Below are positions 44,202 to 47,284 of a stretch of DNA of 64,000 bases, in pieces; position 1 is the stretch's first letter, and the number at the start of each line of letters is the position of its first letter. The stretch is from contig BPGV01000001.1 in assembly GCA_026003215.1 (NCBI GenBank), positions 1,105,001-1,169,000 of the forward strand. The letters run 5' to 3'. This DNA comes from Bacteroidia bacterium (GTDB taxonomy: Bacteria > Bacteroidota > Bacteroidia > SpSt-205). Position numbers and translations under genes: made by a program. Below the pieces are notes generated by a model. The model saw only the letters and a list, made by a program, of their open reading frames with translations, was not told the DNA's origin and ran no database searches.

Positions 44202-44962
44202 TAGAAGCCTTAGAAACCCTCCTCCTCTCACTGGCGGATGATGATCTCTGCATGGGGCATCGTCACGCCGAATGGATAGGCCTGGGCCCCATCTTGGAAG
44301 AAGATATCGCCTTTGCGTCTATTGCCCAAGATGAGACAGGACACGCCCAAGCGTATTACCAAATCCTCACAGATTTAGGGCTGCGCACCCCCGATGAATA
44401 TGGGTTCCACCGAGCCCCTGCGGAATACCGCTGCGCCCATCTGGTAGAACTGCCCAACTTTGAGTATGACTATGGCTTCGCGCTCATGCGGCACTTCCTG
44501 TATGACGCCGCCGAGCAAGTGAAGCTGCAAGCCCTCAGAAATAGCAGGTATGACCCCTTAGCCGGCCTGGCCGAACGGCTCCTCCGAGAAGAAAAGTACC
44601 ACTGGCTCCATGCCCAGACATGGATACACCGCCTGGGCCGCTCTACCGAAGAAGCACACACTCGCCTCAAAAATGCCCTCCAAATGACCTGGCCATATGC
44701 GTGGATGCTCTTTGAACCCCTCCCCTATGAGGCCGAAATGGTAGAAGCCGGCTGGACCCCCCCTATGGCAGAGCTACGGACCCGCTGGCTCGAACTGATT
44801 GCGCCTATCCTTCAGGAAGTAGACCTTTTCCCCCCGGCCCCCTCCGAGGAAGAGCTCTCCTCCCTTGCCGGAGCCCGAAGCGGCCGCCGCAGCCCCTACT
44901 TTGAGGACCTGTACCGCGAGTTTACGGAAGTCTCCGCCTCCGAACCCGGCGCCGAATGGTAA
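44198..44962 (+). CDS. paaC: 1,2-phenylacetyl-CoA epoxidase, subunit C
   Basis: Non-catalytic ferritin-like partner of PaaA. 254 residues from ATG 44198 (ATGA overlap with paaB); the frame is open further upstream inside paaB. LSLADDDLCMGHRHAEWIGLGPILEEDIAFASIAQDETGHAQAYYQIL and LREEKYHWLHAQTWIHRLG are typical. PaaC normally keeps part of the helix bundle but lacks a working iron site. Overlaps the next gene by 7 bp. Confidence 0.95.
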   Translation: MIEALETLLLSLADDDLCMGHRHAEWIGLGPILEEDIAFASIAQDETGHAQAYYQILTDLGLRTPDEYGFHRAPAEYRCAHLVELPNFEYDYGFALMRHFLYDAAEQVKLQALRNSRYDPLAGLAERLLREEKYHWLHAQTWIHRLGRSTEEAHTRLKNALQMTWPYAWMLFEPLPYEAEMVEAGWTPPMAELRTRWLELIAPILQEVDLFPPAPSEEELSSLAGARSGRRSPYFEDLYREFTEVSASEPGAEW

Positions 44963-45360
44963 GAATACTCGTCGTCTGCACCCACAATAGCGCCCGCAGT
45001 CAGATGGCTGAGGCTTTCCTTCGCCGGCTTCTGGGGCAAAAGGCGGAGGTGCACAGCGCAGGAACCCATCCTACGCGCGTCCACCCCTTGGCCCAAGCCG
45101 TCATGCACGAAATCGGATATGGCCTCTCCTCCCATACCTCTGACCCCATAGACAAGTACCTCAGCCAAACCTGGGACTATGTGATTACGGTCTGCGACTC
45201 GGCCCGCGAAACCTGCCCCTACGTCCCCGCTAAGCACCACCTGCATGTAAGCTTTCCTGACCCCTCACAAGGCGATACAGAAACCTTTAGGACTGTACGG
45301 GACGCTATCCACACATGGGCAAAGCAGTTTAGCCAAGCCCTGCATGAAGCCTTCACCTGA
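44956..45360 (+). CDS. arsC: Arsenate reductase / low-molecular-weight phosphatase fold (thioredoxin-type ArsC)
   Basis: 134 residues. The P-loop CTHNSARS places the nucleophile at C8 and arginine at R14. SAGTHPTRVHPLA, SHTSDPIDKYL, VITVCDSARETCP and FPDPSQGD are the landmarks of thioredoxin-coupled ArsC, with the redox cysteines in the CDSARETC segment. It would reduce arsenate to arsenite or act as a tyrosine phosphatase; the two cysteines favour arsenate reductase. No arsenite pump or ArsR is present. It overlaps paaC by 7 bp and paaD by 17 bp, so it is fully embedded in the paa operon. Confidence 0.88.
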   Translation: MVRILVVCTHNSARSQMAEAFLRRLLGQKAEVHSAGTHPTRVHPLAQAVMHEIGYGLSSHTSDPIDKYLSQTWDYVITVCDSARETCPYVPAKHHLHVSFPDPSQGDTETFRTVRDAIHTWAKQFSQALHEAFT

Positions 45361-45896: not shown

Positions 45897-45925
45897 TTGG
45901 AATTATCCTAAACTCCGTACCTTTG
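45897..45925 (+). promoter_or_regulatory. Orphan promoter: -33 TTGG and -7 box TACCTTTG
   Basis: TTG at 45897-45899 and a perfect -7 box at 45918-45925, 18 nt apart. No start codon follows; the hairpin at 45945-45987 begins about 20 nt downstream. The gene-free part before it (45824-45896) shows nothing else I recognise. Confidence 0.6.
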
Positions 45926-45944
45926 TGTAAGCCCAGCAGAGAGG

Positions 45945-45990
45945 CCCCCGGGTTGATTCCCTTCGGGTTGAGTCCCCGGGGGTTTTTGCT
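45945..45990 (+). terminator. GC-rich hairpin with T-run between paaD and purD
   Basis: Arms CCCCCGGG (45945-45952) and CCCGGGGG (45975-45982) form 8 GC pairs. The inner part contains CCCTTCGGG, able to form a C(UUCG)G tetraloop. TTTTT follows at 45983-45987. It is a convincing intrinsic terminator on the plus strand, for paaD readthrough or for the orphan promoter just upstream. Confidence 0.75.
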
Positions 45991-46000
45991 TTTAGGGGGG

Positions 46001-46008
46001 TAACTTTG
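46001..46008 (+). promoter_or_regulatory. -7 box TAACTTTG of purD
   Basis: Perfect box, 4 nt before ATG 46013 and 13 nt after the terminator T-run. Confidence 0.72.
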
Positions 46009-46012
46009 CTGC

Positions 46013-47284
46013 ATGGAAAAACTCCTGGTTCTGGGCCGGGGTGCCCGCGAGCATGCTATCGCCCATAAAGCCCTTCGTTCTCCCCGCCTCCAAGTGTATG
46101 TGGCCCCAGGCAATCCCGGCATGCTTCCCCCCATTCAACGCATCCCTATCGCCGAAAGTGATATTGCAGCCTTACGCGACTTTATTCGCCGAGAAAAAAT
46201 CACTTATGTCGTTGTAGGCCCCGAAGCCCCCATCGCCCGAGGCATCTACGATGACCTCCACGACCTTGCTACCGTGATAGCTCCCCCGCAAAAGCTTAGC
46301 TTCTTAGAGGCCAGTAAAGCCAAAACCAAAAAGTTTTTAGAATCAGCCGGCATCTCTACCGCTTCAGCTTTTATTTTTGACCACACCCAGCAAGCCGAAG
46401 CCGAAAAATACCTGCGCACGGCTGCCTACCCTTTGGTTCTCAAGGCCAGTGGGTTGGCTGCGGGGAAAGGCGTGCTTATTGCCCATGCAGCCGAAGAAGC
46501 TTTGGCTTTTGCCCGAGGGTGCCTTTCAGGGGAGCGCTTCGGCCCTGCAGGGCGTACCCTGGTGGTGGAGGAGTTTTTGGAAGGGGAAGAATGCTCGGTA
46601 TTTTTGCTCGCTGACGGGAAAGGCTACCTCCTCCTCCCCACCGCTCGCGACTATAAGCGTTTGCGCGACCGAGATGAAGGCCCCAATACCGGCGGTATGG
46701 GTGCCTACGCCCCTGCCGAAGAAAAAGCCTGGCTCCAAGTCGTCCAAGAAAAAGTGATAGAGCCTACCTTACAGGCCCTAAAGCGCGCCGGTACCCCCTA
46801 CCAAGGCTTCCTCTACCTGGGCCTGATGAAAGTCCAAGGCGAACCCTACGTACTGGAATACAACGTGCGCTTAGGAGACCCCGAAGCCCAAGTCATACTC
46901 CCCTTGATAGCCAATGACTTGGAGGAGCTTCTGTACTATTACCGCATTCAAAAAGTAGGGGAGCTCAAGCTGCGGCAGACCGCCGGCTACGCCGTCGGCG
47001 TCGTAGCCGCCACCTCCGGCTATCCCGAAAATCCTACCTCCGGCCAAACGATACCCCTTCCCCCTCTCAGCGACGGGGGGACTCAGCTCGCCGAACATAC
47101 CTTTGTCTATTGGGCAGGCGTTGATTCTGTAGAAGGGAACGCCCTACGTACCACCGGTGGACGTACCTATACCGTCGTGGGCTTAGGCGATACCTTGGCA
47201 CAGGCCCGCGAGCGCGCCTATAAAGGGCTGGAGGCCCTCCCTTTTGAAGGAAGGCATTATCGTGGAGACATCGCCGCCCGCTAA
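46013..47284 (+). CDS. purD: Phosphoribosylamine-glycine ligase (GAR synthetase)
   Basis: Joins phosphoribosylamine and glycine with ATP in purine synthesis. 423 residues. N-terminal KLLVLGRGAREHAIAHKAL, VAPGNPGM, VVGPEAPIARG; the ATP-grasp domain shows VLKASGLAAGKGVLIA, VVEEFLEGEECSVF, ARDYKRLRDRDEGPNTGGMGAYAPA and YNVRLGDPEAQVILPL. Stands alone here with its own leaderless promoter. Convergent with dnaG, with 6 bp between the stop codons. Confidence 0.97.
   Translation: MEKLLVLGRGAREHAIAHKALRSPRLQVYVAPGNPGMLPPIQRIPIAESDIAALRDFIRREKITYVVVGPEAPIARGIYDDLHDLATVIAPPQKLSFLEASKAKTKKFLESAGISTASAFIFDHTQQAEAEKYLRTAAYPLVLKASGLAAGKGVLIAHAAEEALAFARGCLSGERFGPAGRTLVVEEFLEGEECSVFLLADGKGYLLLPTARDYKRLRDRDEGPNTGGMGAYAPAEEKAWLQVVQEKVIEPTLQALKRAGTPYQGFLYLGLMKVQGEPYVLEYNVRLGDPEAQVILPLIANDLEELLYYYRIQKVGELKLRQTAGYAVGVVAATSGYPENPTSGQTIPLPPLSDGGTQLAEHTFVYWAGVDSVEGNALRTTGGRTYTVVGLGDTLAQARERAYKGLEALPFEGRHYRGDIAAR

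Follow-up and report, generated by a model that had tools for sequence, protein, structure and literature searches.

A conserved, doubly bulged hairpin upstream of purD suggests a small RNA gene and a covarying RNA family in Bacteroidia

With moderate confidence, we propose that positions 45918 to 45988 of the window (the whole 64,000-nt stretch analyzed here, from a single-contig genome of 2.27 Mb) form an autonomous small RNA gene, whose product would act in trans through a hairpin predicted to be recognized by a protein. Comparison with related genomes shows a putative promoter box of the sigma-ABfr type, a conserved RNA predicted to begin at A45930, a doubly bulged hairpin leading into a U-run, and membership in a family of covarying RNAs (Table 1). 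Transcription would yield an RNA of 58 to 60 nt that ends at its own terminator. Post-transcriptional control in the Bacteroidota is little understood, and the small RNA families reported from the phylum are few.

Table 1. Predicted elements of the small RNA gene and of the adjacent purD promoter (window positions).
Feature	Position	Strand	Basis and remarks
Candidate -33 element TTGG	45897..45900	+	From sequence; 17 nt 5' of the -7 box; weak conservation among congeners
TACCTTTG, Bacteroidota-type -7 box (TAnnTTTG)	45918..45925	+	Sequence; congener alignment
Small RNA gene (start predicted at A45930; about 58-60 nt predicted)	45930..45988	+	Conservation onset; 10/11 congeners; R2 match
5' leader AGCCCAGCAGAGAG; candidate seed, predicted to be single-stranded	45930..45943	+	One substitution among 10 congeners
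Outer stem, 5' arm GCCCCCGGG	45944..45952	+	Folding; outer-stem covariation across families
First UU bulge	45953..45954	+	UU or UC in family members read; UA in some second-paralogue copies
Core helix, 5' strand GAUUC (family: GAYUC)	45955..45959	+	Comparison of family members, A2 alignment
Inner stem-loop CC-UUCG-GG	45960..45967	+	Inner-stem covariation: 122/123 cells paired vs 65 shuffled
Second UU bulge, opposite strand	45968..45969	+	UU; UA in G009; some array units have UC
Core helix, 3' strand GAGUC	45970..45974	+	Comparison of family members, A2 alignment
Outer stem, 3' arm CCCGGGGGU	45975..45983	+	Folding; covariation
T-run TTTTT; hairpin doubles as predicted intrinsic terminator	45983..45987	+	Terminator scan; T-rich in all congeners
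TAACTTTG, separate leaderless-type purD promoter box, outside the RNA gene	46001..46008	+	Sequence; similar box kept at purD loci without the RNA

The hairpin (45944-45983) begins 18 nt downstream of the TACCTTTG box and continues into TTTTT, folding into an outer stem of 9 pairs, then a UU bulge, a 5-pair GAUUC/GAGUC helix and 2 CC/GG pairs that close the UUCG loop, with a second UU bulge in the opposite strand (folding z of about -3). A first-pass annotation of this DNA had recognized both promoter elements, TTGG and TACCTTTG, as well as the hairpin with its T-run and UUCG loop, but it had spaced the promoter elements by 18 nt where the sequence has 17 and had reduced the hairpin to an 8-bp stem. 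Taken from the window sequence alone, box and hairpin would be weak evidence, and in a generic promoter and terminator scan the terminator-like sites of the region are no more numerous than expected by chance from shuffles. We count the feature as real because of its relatives, which are 99% identical inside 45930-45982 and about 25 to 30% identical outside. Two other readings of the conserved block were dropped: an encoded peptide, since the block, judged by eye, has no plausible start codon, and a tRNA T-arm-like fold with GGGUUGAUUCCC as a separate mini-hairpin, which is incompatible with the inner stems of other families.

Within the genus, a 76-nt query matched 10 of 11 sampled congeners at 93 to 100% identity, with one strong match per genome; the sole congener without a match, G007, is an assembly that is 81% complete. 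The congeners found by pattern are "Bacteroidia bacterium" MAG records, whose isolate names suggest a hot-spring-style habitat. In an anchored alignment of the 10 congeners, pairwise identity is 99% between A45930 and the stem's end (predicted transcript, 45930-45988), 74% in the -7 box and 24 to 31%, the random level, in the flanks beyond, with sharp borders at the predicted start and at the terminator. The few substitutions inside the RNA are confined to the loop, the second bulge or the 5' end. The distance from the -7 box to the RNA is identical in 9 of the 10 (one base more in G006), and conservation sets in at A45930, the expected transcription start, 5 nt after TAnnTTTG; the same box-to-start spacing places the purD start at its ATG. 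The first-pass annotation had offered a small stable RNA as one reading of the region, to be refuted by a lack of joint conservation of box and hairpin in relatives together with the lack of a short transcript. In 10 congeners box and hairpin have been kept jointly while the flanks diverged; the computational half of this test thus strongly supports that reading. Small, single-copy and nearly invariant in the genus between fully diverged flanks, the RNA is likely to be functional.

Beyond the genus, a covariance model built from genus sequences alone (R1) matched other families of the class with E values down to about 1e-6, and the distant matches have GGUUGAYUC ... UUGAGUCC in common. The pattern GGTTGAYTCN{5,20}TTGAGTCC, which fixes only the bulges and the core helix, was run against 395 Bacteroidia genomes and matched 81 times, in 24 of them, compared to 3 times for a reversed control; one of the 24 genomes, G217, has no stem and represents a chance match. 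Because the pattern does not select for complementarity of the flanks, the flanking stems offer a fair test. Among the 53 distinct pattern matches, 419 of 424 outer-stem cells pair, against 331 in shuffled sets (SD, 7; maximum, 355), and 122 of 123 inner-stem cells pair, against 65 (SD, 5; maximum, 79). The paired cells show many different pair types, with G-U among the covarying pairs. In the model-fitted alignment A2, 99.1% of cells are paired and 137 show double changes, compared to 38 in shuffles, and structures slid out of register collapse. The covariation comes solely from other families, the stems being invariant in the source genus; across families, the covariation check that had been suggested earlier for this hairpin shows that both stems covary strongly.

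These comparisons define a common architecture, that is, outer stem, UU, GAYUC, inner stem-loop, opposite-strand UU, GAGUC, outer stem and U-run, in which the sequence of the bulges and the core helix is constant and the stems on either side are free to change. An AGCA or AGCU element occurs in the 5' leader region of other families too, and a TAnnTTTG or TAnnnTTG box lies 10 to 80 nt upstream of 41 of the 52 non-array copies, compared to 9.3% of random positions. The window locus carries both hallmarks, with the double-UU-bulge architecture at 45944-45987 and its own TAnnTTTG-type promoter at 45918-45925. Searches of Rfam 15 at gathering and relaxed thresholds returned no relevant family for the window or related loci (a RybB match of 17.6 bits, against a cut-off of 40 bits, was set aside as chance), and we found no description of the RNA family in the literature searched. 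We regard a family of covarying RNAs as well supported; its transcription and function are inferred.

A second model, R2, which was built from the family matches and hence is not independent of them, gives a single match in the window (45930-45989; E = 2e-19) and finds the RNA in 12 of 12 genomes of its own family (counting a second paralogue), in 18 of 22 genomes of the order of G213 and in 3 of 3 of the order of G051; among 396 genomes drawn across the phylum, it found only the source genome and one weak match. Over these three orders of Bacteroidia, copies number 1 to 48 per genome and occur singly or in tandem arrays. The arrays, found in f3 genomes, are built of 52- to 58-nt units, with about 40 consecutive 56-nt units in G213 (C1:6190685-6192927), and the array loci L212, L218, L233 and G365:C543 show UU-to-UC changes in the bulges together with covarying inner stems. 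The T-run in every array unit would make long arrays hard to transcribe. Several f3 copies (L104, L116, L213, L222 and similar) have an extra variable 5' hairpin before a AGCAAGGG or AGCUAGGGG linker. The second paralogue, a small RNA of the source genus that is longer and shares the architecture, lies outside the window (G000:C1:649390-649438, minus strand; L089), near a tRNA thiouridylase-type (tRNA_Me_trans) gene. It reads GGUUGAGCUCCC-loop-GGGUUGAGCUCCC, has a conserved 5' region (AGAGUAGYCGCCCACACGAAGCA) and, in most genomes, a TAnnTTTG-like box, and the palindromic sequence of its core helix, GAGCUC, brings out the two-fold symmetry of the module.

From this contrast between a fixed core and freely varying stems, we propose that the invariant module, two opposite-strand UU bulges flanking GAYUC/GAGUC, is probably a binding site for an RNA-binding protein other than Hfq. 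Hfq is not a general partner, since it went undetected in 128 of 129 genomes, with no match above the cut-off in any and one weak sub-cut-off match, in a search that found it in the controls E. coli and B. subtilis; the carriers do not show the encoded Hfq expected of an Hfq-dependent small RNA. Near invariance in the genus extends to the leader, so a seed there may add to protein recognition, and the leader would be the likely contact to target RNAs.

Possible, but in our judgment rather unlikely, is a classical base-pairing regulatory RNA, whose leader pairs with mRNAs and whose hairpin serves only as terminator and stabilizer. The near invariance of the leader in the genus and the AGCCCAG common to both small RNAs of the genus fit such an RNA, as does the parallel with the RbpB-associated FopS/GibS small RNAs of Bacteroides, which are 65 to 70 nt long, mostly intergenic and multicopy, are preceded by sigma-ABfr promoters, and consist of a single-stranded 5' stretch followed by a terminator hairpin (PMC11697453). 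However, it is the bulged core of the hairpin that is most constrained across families, and a plain terminator needs none. A conserved target of the leader was also sought and not found: its reverse complement, CTCTGCTGGGCT, with one mismatch allowed, occurs at about 27 sites per genome, equally on both strands.

That the hairpin acts at the DNA level, as a mobile or recombination element of the REP-like or attC-like type, strikes us as very improbable. Multiple copies and tandem arrays in the f3 genomes would suit such an element, but the source genus has one copy per genome, the promoter box stands at a fixed distance, the U-run is directional and G-U pairs take part in the covariation.

Least probable are the readings that tie the hairpin to its neighbors. 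The RNA gene lies immediately upstream of purD in 6 of 10 carriers (G000, G001, G004, G006, G008 and G009), as would suit the cis-acting attenuator or decoy promoter for purD raised by the first-pass annotation; yet it is found elsewhere, beside unrelated genes, in the other 4 (G002, G003, G005 and G010), and in these and in G011 purD keeps its own leaderless-type promoter with no RNA gene adjacent. The location in the purD 5' leader that a riboswitch or attenuator would share across relatives is thus lacking, and purD is absent from the recurrent neighbors of the RNA in other families, and we reject this reading. As the first-pass annotation stated, purD itself (window 46001-46013) looks leaderless: the G of its separate TAACTTTG box is placed precisely 5 nt ahead of the start codon, the ATG at 46013. 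Most congeners have the same arrangement. Loci in the genus differ in context (purD; glycosyltransferase/PAS; TPR; lpd/GH57), and across family members we found no common neighbor gene, the contexts being mostly intergenic and the neighbors mixed; the most frequent neighboring family, ScpA, stands beside 6 members, which we interpret as a single conserved f3 locus. We likewise reject the idea, suggested earlier for paaD, that a chance promoter accompanies a plain terminator of the upstream operon: stem and T-run make a good intrinsic terminator, but leader and box are conserved, the latter at a conserved distance, 53 nt are near-invariant, and the upstream genes differ, that of G004 and G006 not being paaD. 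Inside the paa cluster, overlapping paaD, we noted by eye a low-molecular-weight phosphatase/arsenate reductase-like protein (window 44956-45360), an arrangement also kept in L003, L004 and L005.

Plasmid and phage record collections gave chance matches only. The same double-bulge hairpin also occurs on four IMG/VR contigs, immediately 5' of tRNA-Asp within tRNA clusters (L160:8779-8836; L192:9100-9153; L193:4373-4426; L208:6800-6848), preceded by another conserved structured hairpin and with a covarying inner stem (CCAUG/CAUGG versus CCUUG/CAAGG); an Rfam scan of the hairpin in L160, the only phage contig scanned, gave no match. These loci could reflect a widely recognized module or convergence.

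Returning to a protein-recognized, trans-acting RNA, the f3 tandem arrays may be multi-site binders or titrators of the same putative protein. We tentatively extend this proposal, as a possibility we would not put higher than that, to the opposed-UU-bulge GAYUC/GAGUC module as a recurrent protein-recognition site in single small RNAs, in titrating arrays of about 40 hairpins and in phage tRNA-cluster RNAs, all tied to a putative global RNA-binding protein in genomes where Hfq is undetected. The exact recognition module would make a direct pull-down of the partner protein possible, and genomes with one copy and with 48 copies would allow binding to be tested against titration.

CsrB/RsmY-type RNAs titrate a protein through repeated hairpin binding sites with a GGA-loop motif. 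The f3 arrays resemble them in repeating identical hairpins and may place several putative protein sites on one RNA, whereas the window locus has a single hairpin; unlike CsrB/RsmY, the present RNAs have no GGA-loop motif, and single-hairpin genes are more widespread. Flavo-1, Bacteroides-1 and similar motifs are orphan structured RNAs of Bacteroidetes in Rfam; the window RNA is likewise an orphan structured RNA of the phylum, but none of these motifs scored on the RNA loci in Rfam 15. In function, the closest parallel is offered by the FopS/GibS small RNAs of Bacteroides, with which the window RNA would share its short length, a mostly intergenic, multicopy family, a sigma-ABfr promoter, a single-stranded 5' stretch and a terminator hairpin. 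The covariance models of Rfam 15, which may not include one for FopS, gave no relevant match at any threshold used. FopS, a small RNA reported in Bacteroidaceae, shows its conservation in the 5' seed (PMC11697453), whereas here a doubly bulged hairpin is conserved, in other orders of Bacteroidia.
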